DNA of 64,000 nt, taken from Hysterangium stoloniferum. Its lineage: Eukaryota; Basidiomycota; Agaricomycetes; Hysterangiales; Hysterangiaceae. Positions within the stretch are counted from its first letter, which is position 1. Each line of letters begins with the position of its first letter. A program made the position numbers and the translations under genes. The stretch is from NCBI GenBank assembly GCA_015178975.1, contig WHVD01000092.1:124001-188000 (forward strand), read 5' to 3'. This document shows positions 20,844 to 64,000 of this stretch, in pieces. The notes beneath the pieces were generated by a model, which saw nothing but the letters and a program-made list of their open reading frames with translations, was not told where the DNA came from and did no database searches.

Positions 20844-20854
20844 GGGATAACTCA

Positions 20855-31812: not shown

Positions 31813-31814
31813 TG

Positions 31815-36345: not shown

Positions 36346-36387
36346 TTAACATACTTCCGAGATGATAATCGGTTGTTGTCGTCAAAA

Positions 36388-36655
36388 AATGGGCGGAATA
36401 TGCGACGCTTGCCACGGCAATGCATCACAGTGTCTGGCTCTCAAATACTCCCAAGTTCAGCAGGATAACAACAGAATTATGTCTTGGGAATACAATTTGG
36501 ATCACTCTTGGCGACAATTATACTTCGGTATGCTGGTATCGGACCAAAAACGACAGCAATTTCTTTCAAAGACAGTGGCAATGGTCGAACCCGGTCTCAG
36601 ACTGGTTCAGAAACCGTCCAGGAATATTTGCTGCCATGAGACGTATATATATAGT
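36388..36655 (+). CDS. Family X copy, open
   Basis: From ATG at 36388: MGGICDACHGNAS, QDNNRIMSWEYNLDHSW, LVSDQKRQQFLSKTV. The frame runs on to 36781 across the X/B boundary. Two other frames are also partly open. It is divergent from C and convergent with B. Unrecognised. Confidence 0.4.
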
Positions 36656-36699
36656 CTTACAATATATTTAATTATTAGTCACAAAACACAAAGCCCTAC

Positions 36700-37440: not shown

Positions 37441-37598
37441 ATTTTGAAGATAAGCGTGAACGAGAGAAATGTTGTCATGGATCAGTGATTATTCCTACTG
37501 TTATCTGTTATTCTTTAATGACTTCCTTCGTGTAATCCTAGGTAAGTGACGTGGGAACCGAGGTGGCGGGGCTTCTTCGAGATTTGGTAGTGGTATTC

Positions 37599-37865
37599 AA
37601 TATAATGGGATGGTCGTTAATGAATCCGATGTGGTTCTAGCAACGACCATAACTTGCCGATATATTCAACATGTGTGTGAGAGAGAGTTGTGGAGCATGC
37701 TGCGAGGTAAAAAGTGGCTGTATGCGCTCTTAAAATGGATCAAACCTCTATGTGGCTTGAAAATACGGTTACAGATATCAAGAGAACTCATTAAAATCGA
37801 GTCAAATTGATCGAGAAAGACTTTCCCCTGGGCAACCATATTTCTTCAAAACTGAGACCATGTTA
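37599..37865 (+). pseudogene. Family D' copy
   Basis: Open 37610-37810: MVVNESDVVLATT, YIQHVC, KKWLYALLKWIKPLCGLK. It matches the core of the D repeats (DxSLATxxxxxCIQxM). Head to head with B, tail to tail with M. Confidence 0.45.
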
Positions 37866-37894
37866 GAATTAGACGATATGGACGCACCAGTGAA

Positions 37895-38360
37895 AGGTGT
37901 CGCCACGACGCATCAGAAGCCATTGGCGGTGAGAACTAGACCTTCATAGTCAATCATGGATCCTTCGTTGATTGAGTTGCGGATCGCGTCCCAATGGATT
38001 AGGCTAGAAATGAGAATGGCGGTGGTATTGAAGCTGCGCACCGTGGTACACGTGAGTCCAGGTCGAACACCGATTATTTCTTCGGCGCATACATAATGTA
38101 GCAACTCTGTGTTCGATGTGACGATGGCAACTAGATTGATGATTGTGAAGTACTGTGAGTCTTTTTCAATGTTAAAGCTGACATCTGGCAGTGTCTCCTT
38201 GGCTAGCACCATTATAGCGACTAACTCACCAGCATTATTTTTGATAAACCTGCCTGGAACCCTCATAGTTATATTCCGGGGGTTATTTTCCGAAAAATGG
38301 AGATGTAAGTCGAATTCGTTAATGCTATCGACACATTAATGAAAGGTGTGGCGACTACGC
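37895..38360 (-). pseudogene. Family M copy
   Basis: Open 38266-37913: MRVPGRFIKNNAGELVAIM, LPDVSFNIEKDSQYFTI, CAEEIIGV. A gap removes the LILIAGSS segment, then TVRSFNTTAILISSLIHW follows in frame. Confidence 0.5.
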
Positions 38361-39704
38361 ACAGGAAAGAACAGGCAACGATAACCAACGTTCAAGAGTC
38401 CGACGAATCTTGTCTTTCATATTAGATTGAATCAAATGTCTTTTTAGATACTACTCGAAATGAAACAATTCAAAACATAAAAATCGGTAGAATGAACAAA
38501 AATGAACAAAAATGAAAGCAGCACGTGAAATGTCAGGATAGCCAGTAAAATACATCGTCGTGGCGTGTAGTGTGACCCTAGCGACTGAAACATTCAAACA
38601 CAGCACAAACGAGATGTCTTGGCTTGGCTTGTGCACGTGGCGGGTCGCTGTGGGTCCTCTTCAGCTGATTCCCTCTAACATCACCACGAGTTACCTTTCC
38701 CTTATCTAAGGTGAATGCTCACGACAATGTGAAGATGTGTCTTGATCATGGTGTTGTCCAATGGCTCGACCCGGCTATTTCACGAGAATAGCGGTGGGAC
38801 GGCCTTCTTTGAGACGTCCTAGTGGTATTCGATTGACATTGTTATCACTACTATATGCGATGTGATTTCACCGAGTAGTCCTCGGAATATTTTCAACACC
38901 AGTCTAGAGAACCTCAGCGATCATTACAAGTGAATATCTTCGCTATTAAATCGCGTCAAATTATGTAGTTTCATACAACTCTCAAGTCCGCAGTCTGTTT
39001 GAAATGATTGTCATTTATAAATAGGATCTCCGTCTAGCCACGGGTGGTCACCGCAAGTGTATTCGACTCACGTATGGCATCAACGCGTCCAAGCTGCAGC
39101 GCTCGTGGCAATGGTGAAAAATGACTATATGCGCTCTTATATTTTCTCGACCTATGGGAGCTTGATTGTCAAATGATCAATGGAAGAAAAGTAGTTTAAG
39201 GAATTCGCTCAACACATTCCCCCGCATGGTGTGGAGGCCCTTGGTCTGAAGATAATGGATCTTGTCGATTGAACACTGGCCTGAATGTATGATGAGCCTG
39301 AACGCGACATGTATCTAAATGGCGACGGGGGAGGCCTTTTTCAGACCTTCAATGACATCGTATTTAAAACAAATGTAGTTCATGATTTAGATGTTAGTAT
39401 AGGGACGGTTAGTGCCCCAAAATGTATTCAACGCATGTGTGGGGACACTGCGGACCTCGCGGCTATAATACAAAGTGATTATATGCGTTCTTACATAGGT
39501 TCAAATAATATAGCTTTATACCATCTGCAACCCCAGCTGCAAAGTGAATTGAATGAAGGGCGACGCTATTTGTTTCCTCGTGGTTTGGTTGAGATGTATC
39601 AGCATTATCGAAGAGAAATGATTAGCGAGTGTGTCCAATTGATGGTGCAAGACCTTTGTCAGGGCAACCATGTTCCTCCACCACTGATATGGGGGTCTCG
39701 TTAG
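38361..39704 (+). pseudogene. M-D spacer and family D copy with open 3' part
   Basis: Spacer to about 38690 and a degraded first part. 39285-39704 is open for 139 codons from an ATG, with YDEPERDMYLNGDGG, DVSIGTVSAPKCIQRMCG, TADLAAIIQSDYMRSYIG, YLFPRGLVEMYQHYRRE and VQLMVQDLCQGNHVPPPLIW. This is the best D C-terminal part in the window. The frame depends on a single-base difference from other copies near GGGGACACTG, so it may be fortuitous. Confidence 0.5.
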
Positions 39705-39769
39705 ACCCTACTGACACACAAGTGGATGGTGTGGCGACCACGGAAAGGAAAGAACGTGCGGTCAAATAT

Positions 39770-41599
39770 AAACGCTCAAGCGGGTACGCGCATGATGTCA
39801 CAATGTGGAAGAAGAGAAACGAGCAGGACGATGATATCGACGCTTCGCACTGTGGTACACGCGTATTCGGGCCTGGAAGATCCAGCTATCAGTTTAAGAG
39901 TAACCACCATGATTATCTCGGCAGAATGCAAGAGCGCGGAATTTTGACTCGCTTCCATCAGAATCAGACTGGTAGGAAAGTTGCATAGGCGGATGTAAGA
40001 CGGTGTTACAAGGTCAAATATTGTGAACATACCGTACGATGGGCCCAATGAGCGAAGAAACCACATTCAGCTGGTTGATGTAATCGGTGAGAAGCGTGCA
40101 GACATCGAAGAAGGTTTGCAAGGACCGCATACTCCGATACAGTGAATATGATATCTCTGAATCAGTATGACGTGTCAATGACGCTGTATACATATTTATG
40201 TCGTCCACTAAAACCTTCAATGCAGCTCCAGCAATATCTCGAAACGATGCATCTTGGTGGATGCAACACAAGAAGCCGTGTAAGATAGTCATACGAGGTA
40301 AATCGGTATGGGTAATTTTTTCTATTATGGTTTTGGTGGGCGGATGAAATGATGTGATGTCACGACGCACGGTTGTATCCAGAATTCAATGCAAGCTCTG
40401 ATCGTCGTGAGCTCCTCTAACGTGGCAGATCGCTTCCACGATATACATATGAGGCGAAAAAGGGTAGGGGCCGGTCAAATTCTGAGACATGATGAGATCA
40501 TGATAGATAACCGGCGATTTGTAAGATAAATGTTGACGCAACCTCATCAAAGTTGGTGTGCAGCGGTGACTTGACTAAAACGTTGTAAAGTGATGACGTA
40601 ATCGCAGGTGCCGCGATGGCAGGTGGCGCGTCTCTATCTAACCAATGGACGCCGGGACACCACTTGAAGGCCGAAGCCAAGGATGTCATAAGCTGGGTAG
40701 TGTGACCTTTGCTACTTCGCGCCGCATATAAAGTGAAGGGACCAAGTACTCATTTAAAACCATCCATTCTCGTTTCCGAATTTGAGGTGGGTATGTGGGC
40801 CTACAAAGGAACGTGAGTAATTCCAGTGTATTCAATGATTGACGCTAAGGTATCCCTACCTCGCTAAATCAACACTCTCTTGAACTAGTCTTCCCAATAT
40901 TGGCAGGGTGAGATGCTTGTGTAGAACCTTGCTACAGGCACTGTCTTGAGACAATTGACTTATGATTTACCCGTATATTGTCAGCTTTGCCATCAGTGAA
41001 GCATTCTTCGCACTGTGGAGGACTTTCATCCCAACCATTTCCAAACCGACTCCACAGTAATACCCGGGGCCAATTCCAATACTTGACGATGTTTCAAGAC
41101 TCCCTGAGATCATTCCCCAGTCCTCTGCATGACTGTGATGCGGGCTGAGATTGGATGTCGTGTTGGTGGATATCTTAACAACAGTGGTTGGCTCATGGTA
41201 GGTCGTTTCTCCTTGACACTGAAGTGTGCCTCATCTGACATAGATCATTCTGGAAATAGCATTATATTTTACTCACCAACTCGTCAACCCAGACCTCTAT
41301 ATGGTTTGCAGACAGTCGTATGTGCTGCCCATCATCGGGGGCCCGATACCACAAATAATGGCCAGGTTCGTTACAGCGCCATCGTTCTTGAAACTTCTCC
41401 CTGAATATCTCTCTCGTCCTGTCAATGATCTCGTCCTGTCAATGATCTCGTCCCGTCAATGATCTCGTCCCGTCCATGATCTCGTCCCGTTTCTCTGAGC
41501 TCAATACACCCAAGGGTGGTAGCTGCTCAATGTCTTCAAGTAAATCCCAGCCGTAGCCGAATCGTCATTCCCCAGAGTCGTCTCGTTGAAAGCAGACAT
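39770..41599 (-). pseudogene. Family A copy with repeat-expanded exon 1
   Basis: Exon 5 about 39776-39974, exon 4 about 40036-40328, exon 3 about 40386-40800, exon 2 about 40862-41220, and exon 1 about 41276-41599. Exon 1 contains four tandem copies of a 17-bp unit. Exon 2 lacks a few bases, exon 3 has a small in-frame insertion (AIAAPAIT) and a degraded 5' part, and exon 5 is truncated after CDIMR. Non-functional. Confidence 0.7.
41411..41490. repeat. 17-bp tandem repeat in exon 1
   Basis: Four to five copies of TGATCTCGTCCCGTCAA-like units, expanded from the single stretch that encodes RDEIV in other copies. Confidence 0.85.
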
Positions 41600-42185
41600 T
41601 GGTGGGTAGCAGTCTTACTTACACTAGAAGGGGGTACCTAGCATTTATGCCACCATCGGTCGGAGAGTTAATTCCACCAAGGGACGGCCTCATGACCGTG
41701 CTTACACAGGATACACAGCATTTCACTCCTAGGCCCTTGGTTTTAAGCTCACGGAACTTGTCGATTGAACACTGGTCTGAAGGGATGATGAGCCTGAACG
41801 AAAAAGGCATCGAAATGGCAACGGGGGAGGCGTTTTCAGACCTTTAATGATATCATATTTAAAACAAGTATTGTTCATGATTCGGATGTTGGTCTACCCA
41901 CGGCTAGTGCCCCCAACTGTTTTCAACACATGGATGGGGACAACTGCAGAGCTCGCGGCGATGATACAAAATGATTATATGCGTTCTTACATAGGTCCAA
42001 ATCATATAGCTTTATAACATCCCCAACCACCGCGGCAAAGAAAAAAGGGCGACGCTATTGGACTCCTCCTGGTTTGGTTGTGTTGTGTCGGCATTATCGA
42101 AGAGAAATAATTAGAAGGTGTGACCAATTGATGGGGCAAGACCGGTGTCGCGGGAACCATGTTTCTCCAACACTGATATGAGGCT
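41600..42185 (+). pseudogene. A upstream piece joined to a D fragment
   Basis: 41600-41735 is the minus-strand A 5' flank. From about 41742 the sequence is the last half of D on the plus strand (EHWSEGMMSLNEKGIEMAT, then the CIQ-like and RALLDSSWFGC-like parts), convergent on the next A fragment. C, X and B are missing from this unit. Confidence 0.5.
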
Positions 42186-43020
42186 CTAATTAGAGCCTAT
42201 CGATACATGAGTGGAAGGTGTGGCGACCACGCAAAGGAAGGAACGTGCGGTCAAATCCAAACACTTGGGAGGGTAACTGATGGAGTGGTCATTGCTCGAG
42301 CTGTGCATTATGTCACAATGTGGAAGAAGAGAAGCGAGCAGGGGGATGATATCGAGGCTGCGCACTGTGGTACATGTAAATTCGGGCTCGGAAGATCCAA
42401 CTATCAGTTTCAGAGTCAATGCGATTATTCGATTACCACACATAAGGAGACGCCAATTAGGACTCGTGTGGGTCAGAACGAGACTGGTAGGACAGTTTCA
42501 TGGGCGGATGTAAGACGGTGCTATAAGGTAACATATTGTGAACATACCGTAGGGTAGACCCAACGAGCGAAGAAACCACATTCAGCTGGCAGACGTGATC
42601 GGTACGAAGCGTGCTGTAGTTGAAGAAGGTTTACAATGAGTAAATACTCCCCCACAATAAATCTAATGTCTCCAAATCAAGATGAAGTGTCAATGACGCT
42701 ATATGCACGTTTATGTCGTCCAATATAACCCTCAATGCCGCTGCAGAAAAATCTCGAAACCATGCATCTTGGTGGATGCAGCACACGAGAAGCCGTATAG
42801 GATGTTCAGATGAGGAAATTAGCGGCCGGTGACTTTGTCTGTTATGCTTTTGGTGGGATGAAATGATGTGATGTGGGGACGCACGGTTGTAACCAGAATT
42901 CAATGTACCCTCTGATCGCTGTGAGCTCCTCTACAGATAGTTGACGTGGCAGATCACTTCCACGATATACACAAGGCCAAAAATTGGCGAGAGATGATGA
43001 AATTCTATGAGATAACGGGT
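42186..43020 (-). pseudogene. Family A exons 3-5, 5'-truncated
   Basis: Exon 5 42186-42480 (IIALTLKLIVGSSEPEF, TVRSLDIIPLLASLLPHCD), exon 4 about 42548-42840 (HQDAWFRDFSAAALRV), and the last 150 bp of exon 3 to about 43020, where M/D-side sequence begins. Intron 3 is partly deleted. Confidence 0.65.
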
Positions 43021-44455: not shown

Positions 44456-45400
44456 AAGTGTGGTGTCGATACATAAGAAGGAATTGGCGGTGAGAACTAG
44501 ACCTTCATAGTCGATCATGGATCCTTCTTTGATTGAACCGCGGATCGCGTCCCAATGTATATGGAGTAAAACTAGAATGGCGATGGTATTGAAGCTGCGT
44601 CCCGTGGTACACGCGGGTCCGGGGTCGAGAGATCCACAGCTATCAGGATCAGACTAACCCCGATTATTTCTTCGCCCCATAATGTAGCAACTCTGTTCGA
44701 TGTGACAATGGCAAGGTAGATTAAAGATGACGAAGTAGTGTGAGTCCTTTCCAATGTTAAGGCCGACATCTGGGAGTGTCTCCTTGGTTAGCACCATTAT
44801 GGCGACTAACTCACCAGCATTATTTTTGATAAAACGGCCTGGAAGCCTCATAGTGTTAGTAATCAAGTCTTCGCATAAATCGAAATCGGAATCAAACCTA
44901 CAATGACGAATGTATGCGCATATATGCGCATATATTGTAGTGCCGTTAAGGGGAGAGTAACTCCTAATCGCGAATTTTTCCTTAATGATGTAATGGACTA
45001 GAAGCTTCGAGTATCTAGATTTCTCCTTTTTACTCCCCTAATAACTCTCCTAAAATAATTAGAAAGTAAATAAAAAGTCGTGATATTTCGCCATATACCT
45101 CAGTGAAGTTTACTCACTCACTCACTGAGGTATATGCGCAATCATCTATTATTATTCTATTACTTACAAAACCTCTTATAGCTTCGAATTTAGGTACTAT
45201 AATATATAGTGAAGTTTACTCACTCACTCACTGTCCTTCCGAATTATTGTCTCCTATTCAACACATAGTTATGTTTCGGGGGTTATTTTCCGGAAAATGG
45301 ACACGTAAGTCGAATTCGTCAATGCTACCGACACATCAGTGAAAGGTGTGGCGACTGCGCATAGGAAGGAACAGGTGACGACAACTAACATTCAAGAGGC
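44456..45400 (-). pseudogene. Family M copy split by an LTR
   Basis: 3' part 44456-44853 (MRLPGRFIKNNAGELVAIM, LPDVGLNIGKDSHYF) and 5' part 45264-45400, separated by the LTR 44854-45263. The mirror copy at 48600-49100 is not split. Confidence 0.55.
44854..45263 (-). mobile_element. Solo LTR, type S, TSD CATAG
   Basis: 410 bp from TGTTAGTAATCAAGTC to CCTATTCAACA, with CATAG at 44849-44853 and 45264-45268. Reverse complement of 1323-1752 with moderate divergence. Contains the palindrome TATACCTCAGTG...CACTGAGGTATA at about 45093-45135 and repeated GTGAGTGAGTGAG tracts. Confidence 0.9.
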
Positions 45401-46708
45401 CCACGGATCTAGCCAATGAGTTTTTTTAATATTAAATCAAATGAAATGGCTTTTTCCCTACTGCTCGAAATGAAACAATTCAAACATGACAATTGGTGGA
45501 ATAAAATCCAGTGAACATAAATGGAAGCAATAGGGGAAATGTCGGGATAGCGAGTAAAATAAACTGCCGTGGGGCGAAGTGCCACGCTAGCGACTGAAAC
45601 ATTGAAACACAGAGATTTCTCAGGGGCTTAGCTTCTGCACGCGGCGGGTCGTCATGGGTATTGTATTCTTCAGCTCTGATTTGATAAGTGATCCCACCAC
45701 ATGACCACGAGCTACGTTTCTCTTATCCAAGGTGAAAGCTCACGACAATGTGAAGAGGTATCGGTGTTTTGATGATGGTGTTTTCCAATGACTTGGCCCA
45801 GCTTCCTGTTCTCCCAAACAAGTGACACGAGAATAACGGTGGGACGGCCTTCTTCGAGTACCCCTAGTGGTATTCGATTGACCTTATTACCGCTAGTATA
45901 TACGATGTGATTTCAGTGAGTAGTCCACGGAATATATTCAACACCAGTATAGAGAACCTCGCAGCGATTAATACAAGTGAATATCTTCACTTTTAAATTG
46001 CGTCAAATTATGTAGTTTCATACAACTTTCAAGTCCGCGGTCTGTTTGCAATGATTGTCATTTATAAATAGGATGTCAGTTTATCCACGGGTGGGTGCCC
46101 GCAAGGATATTCAACTCAGGTATGGCATCAACGCGTACAAGCTGCAGAGCTCGGGGCCATGGTGAAAAGTGATTGTATGTGCTCTTAGATTTGCTCGACC
46201 TATGGCAGGTTTATTGTCAAGTTGTCAATGGAAGAAACTCAGTTTAAGGAATTCGGCCAATGCATTGCCTCGCACGGTGTGAAGGCACTCGGTTTGCAGA
46301 TCATGGATCTTGTCAGTTGAACACTGGCCTGAACGTATGATGAGCCTGAAGGAGACATGCATCGAAATGGCGACAAAGGGGGGGGGGCAATTTGAGGCAT
46401 ACAGGGACATCTTATTTAAAACAAGTGTCGTTCATGGTTCGGATGTTAGTGTAGGCACGGCTAGTGCCTCCAAATGTATTCAACATGTATGGGGACAACT
46501 GCAGAGCTCACGGCGATAATACAAAGCGACTATGTGCGTTGTTACATCGGCTCAAATAATATAGCTTATACCATCTGCAACCCCGGCTGCAAAGTGAGTT
46601 GAATAAAGGGCGCTATTGGGCTCTTCGTGGTTTGGTTGAGATGTGTCGGCATTATCGAAGAGGAATGGTCAGCGAGTGTATCCAAATGATGGTGCAAGAC
46701 CTTTGTCA
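45401..46708 (+). pseudogene. Spacer and family D copy, left arm
   Basis: Spacer to about 45700, then D from its ATG-region (ATGACCACGAGCTACG) to VQMMVQDLCQ at 46708. Segments are open over 60-70 codons only. The poly-G tract at 46380 interrupts the region equivalent to the GDGGG residues of the 39285 copy. Confidence 0.45.
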
Positions 46709-47282
46709 GGGCAACAATGTTCATCCACCACCGATATGGGGGTCTGTCTACTGATACACGAGTGGAAGGTGTGGCGACCACGGAAAGGAAAAAAAGTATG
46801 TTCAACTCTAAATGCTCGATCGGGTAATTGATGGATTGGTCATCTCTCCAACCGCGCATGATGTCACAATGTGGAAAAAGAGAAACGAGCACGGCGATGG
46901 TGTCGAGGCTGCGCACTGTGGTACACGCAGATTTGGGCTCGGATGATCGAGTTGTCAGCTTCAGAGTGATCAACATTATTTTCTCGGCAGACATCCAGAG
47001 CGAGTAATCTGGACTCGCGCCCATCAAAATCAGACTGGTGGGACAGTTTCATTGGCGGATGTAAGATGGTGCGATAAGGTAAAATCTTATCAACGTACCT
47101 TGCGATGGGCCCAATGAGTGAAGAAACCACATTCAGCTGGTTGATGTGATCGGTGAGAAGCGTGCTGTCGTCGAAGAAGATTTGCAAGGAGTAAATACTC
47201 CAGTACAGTGGATGTGATGTCCACAAATCAAGATGAAGTGCCAATGACGCTATATGCACGTTTATGTCGTGCACTATAGCCT
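46709..47282 (-). pseudogene. Family A exons 4-5 in the palindrome spacer
   Basis: Exon 5 (47027 down to about 46740: MLITLKLTTRSSEPKSACTTV, LDTIAVLVSLFPHCDIMRG) and most of exon 4 (47282 to 47097: HINQLNVVSSLIGPI). The start of exon 4 is cut off where the right arm begins. Confidence 0.65.
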
Positions 47283-48600
47283 TGACAAAGGTCTTGCACC
47301 ATCATTTGGATACACTCGCTGACCATTCCTCTTCGATAATGCCGACACATCTCAACCAAACCACGAAGAGCCCAATAGCGCCCTTTATTCAACTCACTTT
47401 GCAGCCGGGGTTGCAGATGGTATAAGCTATATTATTTGAGCCGATGTAACAACGCACATAGTCGCTTTGTATTATCGCCGTGAGCTCTGCAGTTGTCCCC
47501 ATACATGTTGAATACATTTGGAGGCACTAGCCGTGCCTACACTAACCGAACCATGAACGACACTTGTTTTAAATAAGATGTCACTGCATGGCTCAAATTG
47601 CCCCCCCCCCTTGTTGCCATTTCGATGCATGTCTCCTTCAGGCTCATCATACGTTCAGGCCAGTGTTCAACTGACAAGATCCATGATCTGCAAACCGAGT
47701 GCCTTCACACCGTGCGAGGCAATGCATTGGCCGAATTCCTTAAACTGAGTTTCTTCCATTGACAACTTGACAATAAACCTGCCATAGGTCGAGCAAATCT
47801 AAGAGCGCATACAGTCACTTTTCACCATGGCCCCGAGCTCTGCAACTTGTACGCGTTGATGCCATACCTGAGTTGAATATCCTTGCGGGCACCACCCGTG
47901 GATAAACTGACATCCTATTTATAAATGACAATCATTTCAAACAGACCGCGGACTTGAAAGTTGTATGAAACTACATAATTTGACGCAATTTAAAAGTGAA
48001 GATATTCACTTGTAATGATCGCTGCGAGGTTCTCTAGACTGGTGTTGAATATATTCCGTGGACTACTCGCTGAAATCACATCGTATATACTAGCGGTAAT
48101 AAGGTCAATCGAATACCACTAGGGGTACTCGAAGAAGGCCGCCCCACCGTTATTCTCGTGTCACTTGTTTGGGAGAACAGGAAGCTGGGCCAAGTCATTG
48201 GAAAACACCATCATTAAAACACCCATACCTCTTCACATTGTCGTGAGCTTTCACCTTGGATAAGAGAAACGTAGCTCGTGGTCATGGGGTGGGATCACTT
48301 ATCAACTCAGAGCTGAAGAATACAATACCCATGACGACCCGCCGCGTGCAGAAGCTAAGTCCCCGATAAATCTCTGTGTTTCAATGTTTCAGTCGCTAGC
48401 GTGGCACTTCGCCCCACGGCAGTTTATTTTACTCGCTATCCCGACATTTCCCCTATTGCTTCCATTTATGTTCACTGGATTTTATTCCACCAATTGTCAT
48501 GTTTGAATTGTTTCATTTCGAGTGGTAGCGAAAAACCCATTTGATTTGATCTAATATTAAAAAACTCATTGACTAGATCCGTGGGCCTCTTGAATGTTAG
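47283..48600 (-). pseudogene. Family D copy and spacer, right arm
   Basis: Mirror image of 45401-46708 with few differences. Runs from ATG near 48285 to 47283; spacer to 48600. No open segment longer than about 60 codons. Confidence 0.45.
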
Positions 48601-49099
48601 TTGTCGTCACCTGTTCCTTCCTATGCGCAGTCGCCACACCTTTCACTGATGTGTCGGTAGCATTGACGAATTCGACTTACGTGTCCATTTTCCGGAAAAT
48701 AACCCCCGAAACATAACTATGAGGCTTTCAGGCCGTTTTATCAAAACTAATGCTGGTGAGTTAGTCGCCATAATGGTGCTACCAAGGAGACACTCCCACA
48801 TGTCAGCCTTAACATTGGAAAGGACTCACACTACTCCATCATCTTTAATCTACCTTGCCATTGTCACATCGAACAGAGTTGCTACATTATGGGCGAAGAA
48901 ATAATTGGGGTTAGTTTGATCCTGATAGCTGTGGATCTCTCGACCCCGGGCCCGCGTGTACCACGGTACGCAGCTTCAATACCATCGCCATTCAAGTTTT
49001 ACCCCATATACATTGAGACGCGATCCACGGCTCAATCAAAGAAGGCTCCATGATCGACTATGAAGGTCTAGTTCTCACAGCCAATTCCTTCTTATGTAT
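48601..49099 (+). pseudogene. Family M copy, right arm
   Basis: MRLSGRFIKTNAGELVAIMVLPRR at 48719 onward, then NRVATL and a degraded LILIA region; ends near CACCACACTTTTCACTGGCG. It keeps the uninterrupted site (CATAACTATGAGG) where the left arm holds the LTR. Confidence 0.55.
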
Positions 49100-51665: not shown

Positions 51666-51915
51666 CGACTGAACCATTATTATATGCTGTGTGAACCTTC
51701 AGTGGAAGGTGTAAGAAGTAGTGACCTCATTACGGTGGAGCCTATAAGGTTCAAGGAAGGTGAGGGAACCTTATGGATGAAGGCAGGAATGAAATGCTGT
51801 GTATCCCGTGTAAGTACAGCCATAACGCTGTACCTTCATGGAATTAGCTCTCCGACTGGTGGCGGCACAAAAGTAAGGCACCCCCTTCTAGTGTAGGTGA
51901 GACTGCTACCCACTA
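51666..51915 (+). promoter_or_regulatory. Family A 5' flank
   Basis: Conserved upstream block with CCTATAAGGTTC in place of CTATATAGG at about 51740 and a conserved run CCCCCTTCTAGTGTAGGTGA just before the ATG. Confidence 0.4.
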
Positions 51916-53795
51916 ATGTCTACTTTCAACGAGACGACTCTGGGGAATGATGATTCGGCAACGGCTGGGATCTACCGTGAAGACATTGAAGAGCTACAAC
52001 CCTTAGTTTCCCCTGGTGTATTGACTTCAGAGAAACAGGATGAGATCGTTCAAGGGATGAGAGAGATATTCAGGGAGAAGCTTCAAGAATGATGGCGCTG
52101 TAACGAACCAGGCCATGATTTATGTTTTCGGGACCTCAATGATGAGCAGCACATACAGCTGTCTGCAAACCATATAGAGGTCTGGGTTGACGGGTTGGTG
52201 AGTAAGGTTAATGCTATTTTCATGTGATCTGTGTTACATGCGGCAGATCTCAGTGTCAAGGAGAAACGACCTGCCATGACCCACCCACTGTTGTTAATAT
52301 ATCCATCAACACGACATCCAACCTTAGCCCATATCGCAGTTATACCGATGACTGGGGAATGATCTCGCGGAGTCAGGGGACAATGTCAAGTATTGACATT
52401 GGCCCTGGGTATTGCTGTGCAGTCGGTTTGGAATGGGTTGGGATGAAAGTCCTTCACAGGGCTAAGACAGCTTCGCTGATCGCAAAGCTGACAATATACC
52501 GGGAAATCACCCGTTTGTTACGAGACGATGGTGCCTTTAGCAAGTTGCTACAGAAGCATCTTACGCTGCCAAAACTGGGAAGACTAGTTCAAGACAGTGC
52601 TGATTTAGCGAGGTAGGGATTCCGCGACCGTTGAATACACTGGAAATACTCATATCTGAGTCGTAGACCTATATACCCGCCTCAAATTCGGAGAAGAGCG
52701 ACGGAAGTTTTAAAGAGTTTCCCGATATTTTCACAGATGTGGGGGAGCGGGAAAGGTCGCACTAGCCAGCTTATGGCATATTTGGCTTGGACCTTCTTGT
52801 GCTGTCCCGGCGTTTATTGGTTAGATGGAGCCGCGTCACCTGCCATCACGTCAACTGCGATTACGTCATCACTATACAACGTTTTAGTCAAGTCACCGCT
52901 GCACACCAACTTTGATGAGGTCGCATCAACATTTATCATATACATGGCCGGTTATTTCTCAGAATCTCACTGTGTCTCAGGATTTGATCGGCCCTTACCC
53001 CTTTTCCGCCTTGTGTATATCGTGGAAGCGATCTGCCACATGCGTCCACTATCTGTAAAGGAGCTCACGGCGATCAGAGGTTGCATTGAATTCTGGTTAC
53101 AACCGTGCGTCGTGCCATCACACCATTTCATCCTTCCCACCAAAACCATAACAGAGAATATCAGACACAACGACTTAGATTTTATGAATATCCTATAAAT
53201 CTTCTCGTGTGTTGCATGCACCAAGATGCATGGTTTCGAGATATCGCTGGAGCTGTATTGAGGGTTTTATTGGACGACATAAACATGCATATAGCATCAT
53301 TGACACTTCATCTTGATTGGTACACGTCGTACTTACTGTATCGGAGTATTGGCTCCTTGGAAACCTTCTTCAACGACAGCACCCTTCTCACCGATCACAT
53401 CAACCAGCTGAAAGTGCTTTCTTCGTTCATTGGGCCCATCATACGTTACGTTCACTATATGTTATCTTCCAGCACCGTCTTACATCCGCCCATACAATTG
53501 TCCTACCAGTCTCATTCTGACACACACGAGCCCAGATTTGGTTCTCCTAATTTCTGGCGAAAAAATAAGCGACTTGACTCTGAAGCTGATAGCTGGATCT
53601 TCCGAGCCAGAATCTGCGTGTACCACAGTGCGCAGCGTCAATATCATCGCCATTCTCCTTTCCCTCCTTCCACATTGTAACGCCATGCGCGGCTCGACCC
53701 ATGACCAGATCATCAGGGAGCTGTTTGAGAATTTGGATTTGACTGCAAACTCCCTCCTTCGCGTGGTCGCCACCCTTCCACTCGTTTGTCGATAG
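51916..53795 (+). pseudogene. Family A copy, full-length but damaged
   Basis: Exon 1 51916-52197, exon 2 52254-52612, exon 3 52661-53104, exon 4 53155-53445, exon 5 53510-53795. The lengths of exons 1-4 are identical to the intact copy. Exon 1 has an in-frame TGA (after REKLQE), and the exon 4 donor is CGTTACGT in place of GGTACGT. All other exons are open. Exon 5 keeps LTLKLIAGSSEPES but ends early after VVATLPLVCR. The second-best copy. Confidence 0.85.
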
Positions 53796-54795: not shown

Positions 54796-55187
54796 ATGTC
54801 AGGCGGAAGCCCACATCAACTAAGAGCTGAAGAATACCCACGACCCGCCACGTGGAGCAGTCATTCCCCGAGATTTTCTGGTTTATGGTCTGTTTCAATG
54901 TTTCAGTCGTTAGCGTCAAACTACACGCCACGACAGTTTACTTTACTCCCTATCCCAGTTCCCCTGCTGCTTCCATCTCAGTTGACTCGAGTTCATTCCA
55001 CCAATTGTCATATTTGTATTATGTCATTGTCAGTCCTTAATACACTATGTTCACCATCTTTTCTCTTGCAGTGTTGTCTTTCATTCGTGCATGACACTAC
55101 CTCACCAGTCCATTTCTGACGCAAATGACTGGGAGACCATATTGACCACCGGTGTTGGCTCTCAAAGGAATAATTGCGGTTATACTG
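54796..55187 (+). pseudogene. M upstream spacer fused to a B fragment
   Basis: 54796-55020 is the spacer normally found between D and M. At about 55022 it joins B sequence (LNTLCSPSFLL, QSISDANDWETILTTG), which then meets a DNA transposon at 55188. M itself is missing. Confidence 0.5.
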
Positions 55188-55525
55188 CATCAGTAACATG
55201 GTATTGGCGCCTGGATGGTCTTGGACGCTCCATGAGCGCTGGAGGCGTGGGAGGAGGTCGCCCATTCTGGCAGCATCGTGGAGTGTCTGGGATACGTCGG
55301 AATGCCTTTGGATGTCCCGGATGACGCTGGATCATACTGCCTCCTGTGTCATCCACATCCTCCCATGTCATCCACAGACTTCCAGTGTTGTCCACAGACT
55401 TCCAGCATCATCCACATGTCTTGTATATTGTTTATATATTAATAAATTTTTCTTTTAATTGCCCCGCTGTCCCAGTCAAATGGCTTTGAAAACTAATATT
55501 ATTTAACTTTTTAAAAAGGTTGATT

Positions 55526-55726
55526 TTAAGTAATTCTAGATGCTGCCAGCAGTAATGAACTAATCACTAGTACAATTTCACCGATTTGAAACCTAGACAT
55601 AGACATACTAAGCATCCAAGTCCTGTCATCACCCGAGTCCATGTCACTGGTGGATGATTCGCAATGCTCCAAATCGGATTGGTCGCCATTATCCTGTGGC
55701 TGCATTCCCGTTGTTATAAACATCAA
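55526..55726 (-). CDS. Small protein with C-terminal hydrophobic segment
   Basis: 66 codons from an ATG that overlaps the preceding stop (TGATG). An acidic Ser-rich N-terminal half (LEHCESSTSDMDSGDD) is followed by IGEIVLVISSLLLAA, long enough for a membrane or tail anchor. It could be a separate frame or a downstream exon of the coiled-coil gene. Confidence 0.35.
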   Translation of the reverse strand: MMFITTGMQPQDNGDQSDLEHCESSTSDMDSGDDRTWMLSMSMSRFQIGEIVLVISSLLLAASRIT

Positions 55727-56255
55727 CTGATCTGTTCTACGAAAATAGTGTAGGCGTGCTTGAGTGCCTGGGTAAGTTGTCGGTTTTCTTCATAGAGGGC
55801 TGCAGTCGCCTCTATGAAGTGCTGACTGATATTCTCAGCTAACCGGTGGGAGATGTCGGCCTCCTGGGCTTCCTTCCGTACAATACTCAAATCATACTCC
55901 ATCTCTGTGCTGTGCTCTTGCAGAAACTTGACACACTCTTGAAGCTGGTCTTGCTGCGAGCAAATTTTTGCGAACACCTCCCTCGCCTCTGTTATGGCAC
56001 GGACGTCCCTCATGCTGGCAAGACTTGAATACTATGAAGTAAGGTGAATAACGAAGATATTGCAATGCCATTACTCAGAGCACTCACATTATTCATGGAT
56101 GGATCTATCATAGATGGATCTTCCCCTCCTTGCAGCTTGGTGTGTAGTGCAGAATCACCGCTGCTGAACCCATCTGTGTTCGACACAGCCAACTCCACAA
56201 GTTGCCTTTCAGTTGTGTACCAGACTATGTCGTCATCGTTTGGTAATGATCGCAA
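55723..56255 (-). CDS. Coiled-coil protein gene inside the transposon (partial)
   Basis: Exon 56255-56088 (VWYTTERQLVELAVSNTDG, ending PSMIDPSMNN), a 56-bp intron (56087-56032; GTGAGT donor, TTCATAG acceptor, phase 0), then exon 56031-55723 (MRDVRAITEAREVFAKICSQ, AQEADISHRLAENISQHFIE, ENRQLTQALKHAYTIFVEQ). The second exon has a heptad-like pattern typical of a coiled coil. An upstream exon is likely: 56590-56225 includes a Ser/Thr/Ala-rich stretch in another frame. No known transposase domain is visible. It may be a passenger gene or an accessory protein. Confidence 0.5.
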
Positions 56256-56639
56256 TACTCTGGAAGGCCAGTCCCAGCACTAAGGCTGAGACTCAACTCA
56301 TGAGATATAGTAGTGGATGTGGAGGCTGAGCCTAAAGTAGAGGCCAAGGCAGAAGTGGAGGTCAAGGTGGAGATGGAGGCAGAAACTGGGGCAGAGGCAG
56401 AGATGGGGGCAGAACAAGGAGCAGAGGTGGTGGTGGAGATGGTGACAAACCTGTGAATGGCATTATGTAAATATAAAGAAAGGCAAAGAAAATTGAACAT
56501 ACTTGGGCTAACACTAGCTTGATTCATTTGGTGATCAGAAAAACAATGACAAAATAAAATGTAAGGATGGGTGAATCGAGAAAAGTACAAAAAAGATTTT
56601 CAATCGGAGTTTGAATGTGTTTGCAGTTAAGCTCTAAGT

Positions 56640-57050
56640 GCTGGAGTGTGCCGAAAGTATGTACAGGTATTTGTGGACATGTTGTGGGAGCAGTTGTCAT
56701 GTCTGCTAATAGCTTTGTGAGTACATAGGAATATGTGAGGGAAAATAATTTTTTTTATCCAAGACAGAATTATAAAACGGTATTATTTCTGGGAGAGGGA
56801 GACAACAGCTATCCTATCTAACTATAAGGCGAGCAGCGCTACCTAACTAGATATGGGTGTGTGGGTACTACAGGTGCACCCATGTGTCGCTTCCACGTGT
56901 GCAGGAGGAGTTGGGACATAAGCACTACTCATGGAATATGCTGGAGCTGCCTGGATGCACATTTACCACTTCTGGAGAGTGCTGGAAGCGCCCGGACGCT
57001 CTTGGTGGAGGTCTAGACTAGTAAGCGTTCCTGACGGCTCTCAAGCTATT
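56640..57050. other. Transposon right part, no gene seen
   Basis: AT-rich then GC-rich sequence with subterminal motifs (CTGGAAGCGCCCGGACGCTC) similar to those near the left end (CCTGGATGGTCTTGGACGC). No supported reading frame. Confidence 0.4.
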
Positions 57051-57076
57051 TAGCGCCCAATACCATTTTACTGATG

Positions 57077-57500
57077 TGAGCTAATAAGTGATTATCTGAC
57101 CCGGAATCTGCGTGTACCACAGCTCTCAAGCACTCACCCCTCACCATTCTTGTTTGTCTCCTTACATAGTAAGGGACAATGCGCAGCTCATCAACCAACT
57201 GGTTCAACCTTGAATCTGTTGGGAATTTAGTTTTTATCCCTCGTTCCTTCCTTTGCACGGTGGCCACACCTTTCACTCGTATATTGAAAGCAAGCAAGGG
57301 AGAGGATAGTATCTTTCCTTTTTCCTGTTTCCTTTTTCCTTTTTCCTTTTTTCCCGCTCACTTTGGCGGCATTAATAGTTGCATAAGCTTACATCATTTG
57401 AGTCGGGTTGAAAGCTCATACAATCACTTCTTATGCTCACTGCAACTCCAGAATTCATTGCTGATGGGGATTGTGTCCATGATACCTTTGCCTTTGTAGG
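57077..57500 (+). pseudogene. Family B copy, 3' part
   Basis: Open 57179-57499: SFLCTVATPFTRILKASKGED, a TTTTCC-repeat-derived FPFSFF stretch, HLSRVESSYNHFLCSLQLQNS. The SFLCxVATPxTR motif matches the end of A exon 5 (SFLCMVATPSTRV). Counterpart of 30880-30617 on the other strand. Confidence 0.5.
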
Positions 57501-57889
57501 GCTTTGTGTTTTGTGACTAATAATTAAATATATTGTAAGACTATATATATACGTCTCATGATAGTAAATATTCCTGGACTGTTTTTGAACCGGTCTGAGA
57601 CTGGGTTAGACCATCGCCACCGTCTCTGAAAGGAATTCCTGTCGTTTTCGGTCCGGTATCAGTATACCGATGTATAATTGTCGCCAGAAGTGATCTTAAT
57701 GGTGTTCCCAAGAAACAATTTTGTTGTTATCCTGCTGCACTTGAGATCATCTGAGAGCTCGGACACTATGATGCATTGTCGTGGCAAGTGTCGCATATGC
57801 GGCCCATTTTTTGACGACAATAGCCGATTATCAGCTCGGAAGTATGTTAAGACTCAGGGTACCTCGTTCATTCCTTGACTGACAAATTA
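57501..57889 (-). pseudogene. Family X copy
   Basis: Minus strand from ATG at about 57806 (MGRICDTCHDNAS, then closed) and the third-frame GPKTTGIPFRDGGDG stretch near 57620. The AT-rich tail TATATATACG is shared with other X copies. Confidence 0.4.
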
Positions 57890-58559
57890 GCCAAAAGGAG
57901 AGAATGAAGGATCGATCGTGGTGACAAACGAAAGGCTGCGATGATTGGCCATCGTGTGGGAACGAAGAGGGATTGTTACAGCAACCCATGTGGAGCTCAC
58001 AGGGCACAGTGGAATTGGCAGCACCGAAGGGGGCAGAAAGGTGGCAGAAAAGGGGAATATATTAGCATAGCCAGCGTTGTGAATCTTTACATACCAGAAG
58101 AGCTCTGCCTGCAATGGGTCAAACTACGGGTGGGTCACAATGGTTGATCTACCTTGTCACCGTCGCTTTGAAGAGCAATGTCCACGCATTAATCGTGTGA
58201 GAAACATGCCACTCAGACAGACAGACAATAATAAGGCTAGCTGTGAGTGTCGCCTGAGACGAGATCATGTTAAGAATCTGTTAATACACACCCGGATGGA
58301 TTCGCCACAAACAAGGCTTTGGCGAGGGCGAATGAAGAAATCACATTGCTTACCATTAATGCGACTAGACCATCACTAGCCCTGGGTTTCTGCTCGTTGG
58401 AGGTTTTGATAAAATTGAACAGCCAGCCCGCACTCTCGCAAGAAAAGTTTCAGGTTAACAACGACAACTTGGAAGCGGCAGCGGATCAGCATAGCTCTGG
58501 ACTGCATTTATATTATTCAAGGTAATGCCACTTCTCGGATAAGAGAAAAGCCGTTTTAC
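57890..58559 (+). pseudogene. Family C copy
   Basis: HRVGTKRD and HRAQWNW regions from 57941, VDLPCHRRFEEQCPRINRV (58142-58200), an intron-like gap GTGAGTGTCGCCTGAGACG... near 58227, then ARANEEITLLTINATRPSLA (58319 onward) and a tail shared with other C copies. In-frame interruptions exist in the first half. It lies immediately upstream of the intact A gene. Confidence 0.5.
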
Positions 58560-58867
58560 TTTCAACCCTGACGCTCAATAACACCCTTAAATACTATATC
58601 ATGGGGTCACAATTGCCTAAACTATTATTAGATACTGTGTGAGCCTTCAGCAGAAGGCGTAAGAACGTAGTAAAGTAACTACGTCCACTGGAATCTATAT
58701 AGGCCAAGGAAGGTGAAGGGATTTTGCTTCCGATGGCAGGGAGGACATGCTGTGAATCCTGTGTAAACACGGCCATAAGGCTGTACCTTGGTGGAATTAA
58801 CTCTCCGACCGATGGGGCATAAAGGCGAGGCGCCCCCTTCTAGTGTAAGTCAGACTGCTACCCACTA
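58560..58867 (+). promoter_or_regulatory. Upstream region of the intact A gene
   Basis: Contains CTATATAGG at 58695-58703, about 165 bp before the ATG, as a candidate TATA box, and the conserved CCCCCTTCTAGTGTAAGT run near 58840. The GTAAGT there could be a 5' UTR intron donor, but no acceptor is obvious. The block is conserved upstream of every A copy. Confidence 0.45.
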
Positions 58868-60761
58868 ATGTCTACTTTCAACGAGACGACTCTGGGGAAT
58901 GATGATTCGGCAACGGCTGGGATCTACCTTGAAGACATTGACGAGCTACCACCCTTAGTTTCCCCGGGTGTATTGAGTTCAGAGCAACGGGACGAGATCG
59001 TTAAAGAGATGAGAGAGAGATTCAGGGAGAAGCTTCGAGAACGATGGGGTTGTAACGAACCCGGCCATGATTTATGTTATCGGGCCCCGGATGGTAGGCA
59101 ACACATACAGCTGTCTGCAAACCATATAGAGATTTGGGTTGACGAATGGGTGAGTAAAGTATAATGCTATTTCCATGTGATATGTGCCACATGCTGCGTA
59201 TTCAGTGTCAAGGAGAAACGGGCTACCATGACCCACCGAATGTCGTTAAGATATCCACCAACACGACATCCAACCTCAGTCCCTATTGCAGTCATACCGA
59301 TGACTGGGGAATGATCTCACAGAGTCTTGGGACATCATCAAGTATTGAAATTAGCCCTGGGTATTACTGTGGAGTCGGTTTGGAAAGGGTTGGGATGAAA
59401 GTCCTGCACAGTGCAAAGAAAGCTTCACTGATCGCAAAGTTGACAATATACCGGGAAATCACCCGTTTGTTACAAGACGATGGTGTCTTTGGCAAGTTTC
59501 TACACAAGCATCTTGCGCTGCCAAAACTGGGAAGACTAGTTCAAGACAGTGCTGATTTAGCGAGGTAGGGATACGTCAATCATTGAACACACTGGAAATA
59601 CTCATATCTGAGTCGTAAACCTATATACCCGCCTCAAATTCGGAGAAGAGCGACGGAAGTTTTAAAGAGTTCCCCGATATTTTCACACAGGCGAGGGAGC
59701 GGCAAAGGTCACACTACCCAGCTTATGACATTCTTGGCTTCGGCCTTCTTTTTCTGCCCCGGCGTTTATTGGTTAGATGGAGCCGCGTCACCTGCCGACG
59801 CGTCAACTGCGATGACGTCGTCACTATACAACGTTTTAGTCAAGTCACCCCTGCACACCAACTTGGATGAGGTTGCATCAACATTTATCATACACATCGC
59901 CTGTTATGCTTCAGAATCTCATTATATCTCAAGATTTGATCGGCGATTACCCCTTTTCGGCCTTATGAATATCGTGGAAGCGATCTGCGACATGCGTCCA
60001 CTATCTGTAAAGGAGCTCACGGCGATCAGAGGCTGCATTGGATTCTGGTTACAACCGTGCGTCGCGATATGACAGCATTTCATCCTTCCCACCAAAACAT
60101 AACAGAGAATATCAGACACAACGACTTCACTTTTATGAATATCCTATAGAGCTTCTCGTGTGTTGCATCCAACAAGATGCATGGTTTCGAGATATCGCTG
60201 GAACTGTATTGACGGTTGTATTGGACGACATAAACATGCATATAGCGTCATTGACACTTCATCTTGATTTCGACACGTCGGACTCACTGTATTGGAGTAT
60301 TCACTCCTTGGAAATCTTCTTCAACGACAGCACGCTTCTCACCGATCATATCAATGAGCTGAATGTGGTTTCTTCGCTCATTGGGTCCATCGTAAGGTAC
60401 GTTCACTATATTTTACCTTCCAGCACCCTCTTGCTTACATCCGCCTATGAACCTTTCCTACAGTCTGATTCTGACGCACCCAATTCCAGATTGGTATCTC
60501 CTGTTGTCTGGCGAAGGAATAATCAAGTTGACTCTGAAGCTGATAGCTGGATCTTCCGAGTCCGAATCCGCGTGTACCACAGTGCGTAGCCTCGATTGCA
60601 TCGCCATTCTTGTTTCTCTCCTTCGACTTTGTGACGTAATGCGTGGCTCGAGCAATGTCCAATCCATCAGTTACAGGCTTGAGCGCTTAGATTTCACGGC
60701 CCGTTCTTTCCTTTGCATGGTCGCCACTCCTTCAACTCGTGTCTTGGTAGAGTATAATTAG
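58868..60761 (+). CDS. Family A gene, intact five-exon copy (557 residues)
   Basis: Exons are 58868-59149, 59206-59564, 59613-60056, 60106-60396 and 60464-60761. Introns have donors GTGAGT, GTAGGG, GTGCGT and GTACGT and lengths of 56, 48, 49 and 67 bp; 1674 coding nt are open to TAG. Residues 1-60 are acidic and charged. A Cys/Trp motif follows: W60-G-C62, C70-Y71, H79-I-Q-L82, W90, W94-C95, P104-P105. From memory this layout resembles a motif in many uncharacterised agaricomycete proteins. The rest is mixed hydrophobic/polar, with SPLHTNLDEVASTF (exon 3), DSTLLTDHINELN (exon 4) and LTLKLIAGSS (exon 5). No signal peptide or obvious membrane segment. Intron 2 can use ATCTGAG; the TAG acceptor seen in other copies is TAA here, and both would be in frame. 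The function is unknown. Confidence 0.8.
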
Positions 60762-61940
60762 AACTCCATATCAATGTTGGAAAACATGGTAGGTTTCGCA
60801 CCAGCAAATGGACACACTTGCTACTCATTTCTCGCCGATAATGCCGACACATCAATTAAACCAGGAGGAGCCGAATAGCCTCGCCCTTTATTCAAGTCAC
60901 TTTGCATCTGGGGTTGCAGATCTTATAAAGCTATATGATTTGGGCCAATGTAAGAACGCATATAGCCATTTTATATTATCGCCGCGAGCTCTGCAGTTGT
61001 ACCCATCCATATGTTGAGTACATTTGGTGCCACCTAGACTAACATTCGAATCATGAACAAGATATGTTTTAAATAAGATATTACTGAACGTCTGAAAAGT
61101 CCTCCCCCGTCGCCGCTTTGCTGTATGTCTCGTTCAGGCTCACCATATCGTCGCCAGTGTTCAATCAACAAGATCCATGATCTTAAAACCGAGGGCCTTC
61201 ACACTGTGCGAGTCAATGTGTTGGGGGAATTCCTTAAACTAATGCTCTTCCATTGAAAACCTGACAATACCGCTGCCAAAAGTCAAGCAAATATAAGAGC
61301 GCATACAGTCACTTTTCACCTTTGCGGTGAGCTCTGCATGTTGCACACGTTGATGCCATATATGCATTGAATACACTTGCCGGCACCACCCGTGACTAGA
61401 CTGACATCCTATTTATAAATGACAATCATTTGAAACAGAACGCGGACTTGAGAGTTGTATGAAGCTACATAATTTTACACAATTTAAAAGCGAAGATAGT
61501 CACTTGTAATGATTGCTGCGAGGTTCTCTAGATTGATGTTGAATAGATTCCGAGGACTACCCGTCGCTGAAATGACATCGCATCTAGCAGTAACAGTGTC
61601 AATCGAACACCACTAGGGCGTCTCAAGTGCTAACATTATTGTCGTGTCCTTTGTTTGGGAGAACAAGAAGCCGGGAACAAACCAATGGACAACACCATGA
61701 TAAAGACACCGACATTTCTACACATGTCGTGAGCTTTCACTTTGGTTAAGAGAAAAGTAGCTCGTGGTCATTTCAGATGGGATAACTTATCAACTCAGAG
61801 CTGAAGAATACAATACTCATGACGACCCGCCGCGTGCAGAAGCTAAGCCCCCGAAAAATCTCTGTGTTTCAATGTTTCAGTCGCTAGCGTGACACTACGC
61901 GCCACGACAATTTATTGTACTCTCTATCCCAACATTTCCC
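60762..61940 (-). pseudogene. Family D copy, convergent with the intact A gene
   Basis: Matches D from the start region near 61770 to VQDLC-side sequence at about 60800. Many differences from 7290-8241; no long minus-strand frame. A plus-strand frame here (60808-61017) is a shadow. The D partner of the intact A gene is therefore decayed. Confidence 0.45.
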
Positions 61941-62440
61941 CTATTACTTCCATTTATGTTCACTGGAGTTTATCCCACCAATTGTCATGTTTGAATTGTT
62001 TTATTTTGAGTAGTACCGAAAAAGCCATTTGATTTTATCTAATATTAAAGAACTCATGGACTAGATCCGTGGGTCTCTTGAATATTAGTTGTCGTCACCT
62101 GTTCCTTCCTATGCGTAGTCGCCACACCTGTCACTGATGTGTCGGTAGCATTGACGAATTCGACTTACGTCTCCATTTTCCGTAAAATAACCCCCGGAAC
62201 ATAACTATGAGGCTTCCAGGCCGTCTTATCAAAGAATAATGCTGGTGAGTTAGTCGCCATAATGGTGCTAGCCAAGGAGACACTCACATTGGCAAGGACT
62301 CACAGTACTTCATAATCCTTAATATACCTTGCCATCGTCATATCGAACAGAGTTGCTACATTCTACGGCGAAGAAATAATCGGGGTCACTCTGACCTTGA
62401 TAGCTGGATCTTTCCACCCTGGACTCGCGTGTACCACTGT
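61941..62440 (+). pseudogene. Spacer and family M copy
   Basis: The D-M spacer to about 62090, then M (SFLCVVATPVTDVSVALT-like, NNAGELVAIMVLA, AEEIIGV). A deletion removes the PDVSFNI segment. It ends after the LIAGSF-equivalent and fuses to a C-like tail. Confidence 0.5.
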
Positions 62441-62945
62441 GAACTTGAAGGCAGCAACCGGTCGGCATCGCTCTGGACTTCATTTATAATATACATAGGC
62501 AATGTCACTTCCCGAGATCAGAAAAGCCATCTTGATTTCAATGTCCAAGAATGCTAGAAATACTATACTACGCGGTCCCAATTTTTGTTTGTCTCCTTGC
62601 AGATTAAGACATCAAGACATAATGTATAGCCCATCAACAAGCGGTTCAGCCATGAGTGTCTTGAAAATTTAGTTTCCACCACTCTTTCCTTTCTTTCTGT
62701 GGTGGCCACACGTTTCCCTGGTGTAGCAGCGACATCTTCTTCGAACTCCATATCAGCCTTGGAAAGACGTTGTTTGACCTGGCGAATGTCCTGTTCCATA
62801 GCTTGACACGGTTTCTACTCAGATAACGCCTACATAGTTGGAATAAACTAACAGGAAGATCACATAATTCCCTCTTTTTAAATTTGCTTTGGAGGGCGAA
62901 TAAACGTTGAATAAACCTGCGTAGTTTGTGGCAATTTCAGAGCAC
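62441..62945 (+). pseudogene. C tail joined to a B copy
   Basis: 62441-62555 matches the 3' end of C (CGGCAACTTGAAGGCAGC type). 62570-62945 is a B copy of the 50310 type (SFLSVVATRFPGVAATSS, LERRCLTWRMSCSIA). The join between modules is a recombination scar. Confidence 0.45.
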
Positions 62946-63175
62946 GAGTCCGTGACGTTAAAATCGGTTAAGCATCTAATATATGATTGCAGGGTTTAGA
63001 ATTCAACGATCTTTTGGATCCTGAGAAGATCCCTAACCAATTTTAACTCTTAGAAGGATTCAATGTATGATTGTTGAAGTTTATATGAAATAAGGTTCTA
63101 CTAAGGGTCCTAATTCTTTTTTGGAGAGGGGGTTATCCCCGTGTCTACTGATACTGAAGATCCTAAAATATTTTG
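62946..63175. other. Unassigned insertion-like stretch
   Basis: B sequence stops at TTTCAGAGCAC and C-side sequence resumes near 63180. Between them is an AT-rich segment with several GATC-containing near-repeats (AACGATCTTTTGGATCCTGAGAAGATCC) that could fold. No frame or clear element end. Confidence 0.35.
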
Positions 63176-63880
63176 GAGCTAGGACTTTTCTCGGCGAATG
63201 AAGGATGGATTGGGGGCGACAAACTGAGACCTACGATGAATGACCATCATGTGGGAGAGAAGAGGGACCGATACGGCCATGTTTGTGAAGCTCAAAGTGG
63301 AGTGGGCAGAACGAAGGGGCAGGTGCGATCGCAGAAAAGGGCACGTGTAAGCGCAACCGAACAGGGTGAATCTTTACAGATTGGAAGAACTCCCCCTACA
63401 ATAGTACCCCAGAATCATTGACCTATGTTGTCATCGTAGCATCAAAGAATCAATTCCATTTGGCCATACTGGAAATAATACAGCTAGTTGTAAGTATGTA
63501 TGACATGACACGCGATTATATACACAACTTGTCAATACAAATTCTGATAGACACGCCACAATCAAAATAATTCCAAGTCAGACCCTGATCCTCAATAAAA
63601 TCTACAATGAGAAATTTGGTCTTACCTCACTATTTGTCTTGCTTAGACGTTGCACAGAAGTCAAGCTGATTGATATGGCATGGATGACGGAAGAAATCAC
63701 GCTGCTTACCATTAACTCGTTGAAAGTTTGATAAAATTAAACAGGCAGCGCGCACTCCCGCCAGAAAAGGTTTGAGGTTGACAACGAACGCTAACTTGAA
63801 ATTAGCAGCCGGAAAGCATATCTCTGAACTGCATTTATATTATCCATGGCAATGCCACACCTCGAATGAAGGGCCGGCTT
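63176..63880 (+). pseudogene. Family C copy
   Basis: First part open 63173-63421 (HHVGEKRDRYGHVCEAQSG, GQVRSQKRARVS), then a degraded CHRSIKE-like stretch and YTTCQYKF-type residues. The copy is about as diverged as that at 12225. It is followed by the A upstream block. Confidence 0.45.
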
Positions 63881-64000
63881 GCTTTCAACTCTGATGCTCA
63901 ATAATGTCCAAATACTATATTATGGGGTGACAATTGTCTAAACTATTATTAAATGCTGTGTAAGCCTTCAGCGGCAGGCGTAAGAAAGTAGCAAGGTAAC
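63881..64000 (+). promoter_or_regulatory. Start of another A upstream block
   Basis: Matches the region about 300-180 bp before the A start codon in other units (AATACTATATTATGGGGTGACAATTGTC, AAGCCTTCAGCGG...). A further A copy probably begins just beyond the window. Confidence 0.5.

Follow-up and report, generated by a model that had tools for sequence, protein, structure and literature searches.

The gene at positions 58868-60761 (plus strand) of the window, the 64,000-nucleotide stretch of Hysterangium stoloniferum DNA analysed here, most likely represents the member that has survived, or that arose last, in a cluster of orphan genes undergoing birth and death. Orphan clusters of this kind are ordinary in fungi. 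Within the window this gene, referred to as R, is the only copy seen with a start, a stop, every splice site and an open frame.

R encodes 557 amino acids followed by a stop in five exons of 282, 359, 444, 291 and 298 nt (58868-59149, 59206-59564, 59613-60056, 60106-60396 and 60464-60761), which are spliced in frame across introns of 56, 48, 49 and 67 nt, all four with GT-AG ends. Exon 1 comprises 94 codons, contains a C-x(7)-C and an H-x-x-L-S stretch and has counterparts in copies A-G and J. In R, J, F and B, unspliced reading of exon 2 runs directly into an in-frame TAG past its end. The stop of the gene is included in exon 5. The longest spliced frame was determined by allowing at most four GT-AG introns of 45-80 nt each and was compared with 100 dinucleotide shuffles as the null. 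The stretch 58800-60800 yields 567 codons, compared to a mean of 222, a 95% mark of 291 and a maximum of 332 for the shuffles. Stretches taken as controls from the window reached 182 (antisense), 203, 317 and 168 codons, the 317-codon frame (56800-58800) lying above the 95% mark of the shuffles. The gene model of R is thus far beyond chance, and the first-pass annotation, which had joined five exons in frame to 557 residues, is borne out with the same exons, four GT-AG introns and a frame longer than that of any shuffle. The 567-codon reading differs from the 557-residue model in a later intron 1 donor and in an intron 4 placed at 60494-60539; we kept the latter model because its intron ends, including those of intron 4, are retained in the relatives. 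Among copies with both ends aligned, GT..AG is kept in 8 of 8 for intron 1, 4 of 4 for intron 2 (a count omitting C and G, where the acceptor falls inside an alignment gap, and D, which stops short of it), 6 of 6 for intron 3 and 7 of 8 for intron 4, the exception being copy J with TT.

Translated searches of the window revealed ten further copies or fragments (A-J), i.e. eleven members including R, with a common exon-intron plan where present. Based on pairwise alignments to R, from which the breaks were read, nine of the ten (B-J) are broken relative to the R model by truncation, interruption, frameshift, stop or splice mutation. The proposal of about ten broken relatives thus holds for nine of them; copy A (1-646, minus strand) is not callable as broken, because the window start cuts it off. 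Its 5' flank, exon 1 and the beginning of exon 2 are present, the exon parts in frame, and this portion shows no break. Five exons are present in copy F (33419-35537, minus), with three frameshifting gaps in exons 1, 3 and 5, and every exon is found in copy J (51786-53795, plus), whose exon 1 contains one stop, whose donor of intron 4 is changed from GT to TT and whose exon 5 has lost 1 nt, as well as in copy G (39700-41729, minus), with numerous frameshifts and stops. Copy C (14412-16271, minus) spans exons 1-5 with a 1-nt deletion in exon 2 and an exon 5 truncated at 14412. Copy E (26526-28685, minus) lacks the first 34 codons; ~0.4 kb of extra sequence separates its exons 2 and 3, and 1 nt has been inserted into exon 4. 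On the plus strand, copy B is split over ~2.5 kb into exons 1-3 (2850-4162) and exons 4-5 (6622-7246) and is frameshifted and contains stops, and copy D (20212-20856) is a fragment of exons 1-2 with two stops inside exons. Copies H (42189-42983; exons 3-5, one stop) and I (46746-47276; partial exon 4 and exon 5) lie on the minus strand and are truncated.

Decay of these copies spans a range, since long spliced frames can still be read in F, C, E and J: 454-512 codons if at most four introns are permitted and 508-568 codons if a fifth is added. These long readings rely on introns and frame changes that are absent from the rest of the family; the longest spliced frame of copy G, 223 codons, is shuffle-like. 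Between the copies there are 12 more distant pieces of exons 2 to 5 with 40-60% amino-acid identity, and a diverged exon-5-like piece with 47% amino-acid identity and two stops lies upstream of R (57095-57286, plus).

Similarity between the copies extends past the gene and defines a unit of ~6.2 kb, which is arranged in tandem on the minus strand, with more copies on both strands and inverted blocks. The best preserved tandem unit (35538-41729, minus, 6,192 nt) consists of copy G, a spacer, an RNase H-like remnant with an exon-5-like piece, exon-4/5-like pieces and the upstream region of the next copy, in this order. Unit breakpoints vary from copy to copy, and units join head to tail. From these comparisons we concluded that the region is best read as a segmental tandem duplication with rearrangement. 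The arrangement of the copies in a rearranged tandem array is the basis for regarding them as a birth-and-death cluster.

Several other features were observed in this repeat-rich region, among them Copia remnants and minisatellites. A large palindrome (45264-48967) places overlapping unit parts head to head (47276-45264, minus, and 47289-48967, plus), with arms 97% alike over 673 nt. An insertion of ~2.6 kb at 22109-24699 has a 20-bp satellite flanked by inverted arms of 758 nt, which are 97% alike and have the ends CACTGGAGGCACCCC; the insertion looks like a foldback-type element, and its counterparts at ~31813-31815 and 37893-37896 are without interruption. A Copia gag is found at 9892-10755 (PF14223, E 1.2e-10), and the minus-strand reading of 646-2850 contains a Copia-type reverse transcriptase fragment at ~1703-2194 (PF07727, E 3.4e-6, below cut-off); the 164-residue open frame 1703-2194 on its own had no Pfam match. 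An open frame antisense to the unit spacer is similar in two copies (19530-20003 and 7544-7873), the former without a Pfam match. Minisatellites are located at 9153-9530 (21-bp unit, 18 copies) and 29145-29328 (16-bp unit).

R itself is a mosaic. Its exon 5 is 97% identical to that of copy E (other copies 76-81%) and the adjoining 3' flank 98%, while the other copies reach 76-84% across this region. Exons 1-4 are 90-92% identical to F and 89-93% to E, the closest copies being F, E and J at 89-93%. The match to E across exon 5 and the 3' flank points to a recent exchange, and exchange between array members would account for the mosaic.

To judge whether the frame of R has been under constraint we consider insertions and deletions as well as substitutions. 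Of the indels common to at least two copies, 5 of 6 inside exons but only 1 of 7 in non-coding sequence have a length divisible by three (Fisher p = 0.029; joint alignment), whereas among indels seen in a single copy the proportions are 10 of 27 in exons and 6 of 24 elsewhere (p = 0.38). The reading frame thus seems to have mattered in the past, before the copies separated, and not clearly so afterwards. R has four private indels, all of them outside exons.

The neutral ratio of amino-acid to silent changes (N/S) obtained from intron and flank changes is ~2.4 (2.46 pairwise; 2.36-2.43 in the joint alignment). Shared changes give 154/58 = 2.66, not significantly higher than the neutral 2.46, and private changes pooled over the ten other copies give 247/86 = 2.87, not significantly above neutral (p ~0.2). 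Substitutions in the ten other copies look neutral-like. For R the private coding changes amount to an N/S of 6/7 (13 changes, pairwise alignments) or 9/7 (16 changes, joint alignment), corresponding to 0.86 to 1.29, the lowest among the eleven copies on both alignments. Compared with the other copies, this yields p = 0.049 pairwise and 0.145 jointly; the joint value becomes 0.066 when only sites covered by six or more copies are counted. The two alignments of R disagree not only in these coding counts but also in private non-coding changes (9 pairwise vs 18-25 jointly). Purifying selection on R is therefore suggested, not shown, by a test with 13-16 events only on a gene that was chosen for being intact.

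When the protein is divided into 18 bins, the distribution of amino-acid changes is uneven (p = 1e-5), with no such unevenness for synonymous changes (p = 0.32). The bin with the fewest amino-acid changes, codons 280-310 in exon 3, is spared, with 9 N and 9 S. However, N and S do not differ significantly in their distribution when compared directly (p = 0.23). Between copies, exons are conserved to about the same degree as introns, and this speaks against strong constraint over the long term. Pairwise dN/dS values (NG86/YN00) are 0.78/1.05 for R against J, 0.56/0.78 against F and 0.74/0.98 against E. The first-pass annotation had taken a ratio near 1 against J and F to speak against its reading of the gene, and the values come near it; they are weak evidence, as broken partners make the ratio a mixture of neutral and possibly constrained branches. 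As the partners are pseudogenes and NG86 ignores transition bias, pairwise dN/dS was set aside as the main test.

These data bear on the choice between a very recent copy and selection on the protein, the two options that had been offered at first for an intact member among broken relatives. Both find partial support and are not cleanly separated: recency from the few private substitutions and the close match to E, selection from the low private N/S of R against ~2.4 and from its indels, in small tests on a preselected intact copy. If R were a young unselected copy, a recent duplication or gene conversion would have delivered an intact frame with too little time to break. In agreement with this, R is one of the copies with the lowest density of private substitutions (13 coding pairwise, 16 jointly; E and F have 16-17), its identity to E runs on beyond the coding region, the ten other copies are jointly neutral, and private densities in R do not differ significantly between coding and non-coding sites (13 of 1659 vs 9 of 511, p = 0.073). 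However, when the nine non-coding changes are scaled, ~29 neutral coding changes and one stop are expected, compared to 13 changes and no stop seen. The joint alignment predicts 68-74 coding changes vs 14-16 seen, although this expectation is probably inflated by misalignment around intron 4 and the 3' flank. Avoidance of exons by all four private indels and an N/S leaning towards silent changes also speak against a young unselected copy, which we regard as a tenable but rather unlikely explanation.

A further reading assumes an undescribed all-helical fungal family with a short Cys/His N-terminal region, in which one mosaic copy would be selected and renewed from its dead neighbours, so that the pseudogene array would serve as a sequence reservoir. 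We consider this quite improbable.

R might also be the gene of a mobile element, the array being a nest of element copies. This idea derives from a degenerate RNase H-like remnant that lies downstream of the gene in the same orientation in several units and that would be part of the element. RNase H-like stretches are located within units at 6106-6600, 24894-25175, 31867-32271, 37916-38335 and 44657-45037, in places continuing into an exon-5-like piece. Of eight members aligned, four match Pfam RNase_H, the best E of 0.006 falling short of the curated cut-off. The counterpart of the stretch at 61958-62441 (plus) marks the end of R's unit, which breaks off after it. The RNase H-like stretch had no match in the PDB, and RNase H is absent from the whole-frame Pfam scans of 35538-39729 and 60700-64000, so the remnant itself is weakly supported. 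Copies in both orientations and the Copia pieces within the window would fit a mobile element. In contrast, breakpoints differ per copy such that element ends common to all copies were not found, units continue head to tail, and six-frame scans of 35538-39729 and 60700-64000 detected no reverse transcriptase, transposase or integrase with E<=0.5. We therefore see only a slim chance for this explanation. A recognition or immunity-type family that evolves fast, with selection acting on mosaic exchange and on the turnover of copies as such, would be in line with shared indels that keep the frame at near-neutral N/S and with the mosaic structure of R, but is very improbable given that neither the pooled private changes of the other copies nor the shared changes exceed neutral N/S significantly, and a single window is unable to separate it from plain pseudogene decay.

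We then characterized the predicted protein. The R product has a molecular weight of 62 kDa and a pI of 5.7, and its N-terminus contains no hydrophobic stretch (best 19-residue mean within the first 40 residues 0.57). The Cys/His stretch of exon 1 (CNEPGHDLCYR..GRQHIQLS) is, as we presume, reminiscent of mushroom hypothetical proteins. With the whole R product Pfam-A returned no family, the sole match being HAAS below threshold (E 0.2), and a sequence search of the PDB gave none at E<=10. Exon fragments of R and the copies (sets of 12 and 16) yielded few sub-threshold Pfam-A matches and no repeat family. The gene family was likewise without a Pfam-A match in ten open frames of the window and in the whole-frame stretches, which covered part of the window (55000-57100 on the minus strand only, 2850-4161 on the plus strand only). 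Using a query of exons 2-3 plus 16 residues read from intron 2, we obtained 10 pattern stretches in viral contigs and 17 in prokaryote genomes, none of them relatives, and no match in plasmids. None of the titles listed by literature searches deals with the R family, a result of little weight. In agreement with the first-pass annotation, the family is thus unrecognised in Pfam-A and the PDB; it may be known elsewhere.

Structural information comes from a model of exons 4-5 of copy E, with intron 4 read through and its stop taken as a residue. The model is all-helical (mean pLDDT 58, pTM 0.45), and the intron-derived part is among the residues of lowest confidence. The C-terminal part of R, including the region encoded by exon 4, is accordingly modelled as all-helical at low confidence. 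Foldseek with this model gave 268 matches at E<=10, none of them at E<=0.001, with designed helical repeat proteins at the top; these were rejected as an identity for R, being generic helical bundles. A model of exons 2-3 (pLDDT 37) was left unused. With mean pLDDT values of 58 and 37, a function as a helical-repeat scaffold is a guess.

Taken together, we think it probable that the array is a birth-and-death cluster of a lineage-restricted helical-protein gene, with R as an intact, partly exchanged member that is working or was recently inactivated. The ancestral gene, presumably lineage-restricted and probably of basidiomycete origin, would encode an intracellular, mostly α-helical protein. 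It would have multiplied within the ~6.2 kb unit, which duplicates in tandem, recombines and inverts, and most copies would be cut or frameshifted after they arise. Part of R would have been acquired through exchange, the partner being copy E or one of its close relatives. R would then be a working gene, presumably expressed, or one inactivated only recently, and could be the source gene or one of several. The predicted helices might assemble into a repeat scaffold for the binding of other proteins.

If R is expressed, the locus provides an unnamed fungal protein family and, in compact form, a natural comparison between one living gene and its nine or ten dead neighbours. Otherwise it is a decaying cluster of the ordinary sort. 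In either case pairwise dN/dS against pseudogenes tests function poorly, and private changes and indel phase are more informative.

In comparison with known systems, the two C-terminal exons resemble Armadillo/HEAT-type repeat proteins in being modelled as consecutive helices, but differ from them in lacking a Pfam repeat and a Foldseek match at E<=0.001 and in the low confidence of the model. R shares short introns, a repeat-rich setting and the absence of a Pfam match with lineage-specific multigene families of mushroom-forming fungi that lack a known function. In contrast to tandem birth-and-death clusters in general, the R family has neither name nor function in the libraries searched. The R array agrees with the general model of such tandem clusters in its tandem and inverted copies, most of which are pseudogenes, in the exchange between copies and in the mixture of intact and inactivated members, with one intact, nine broken and one cut by the window edge.
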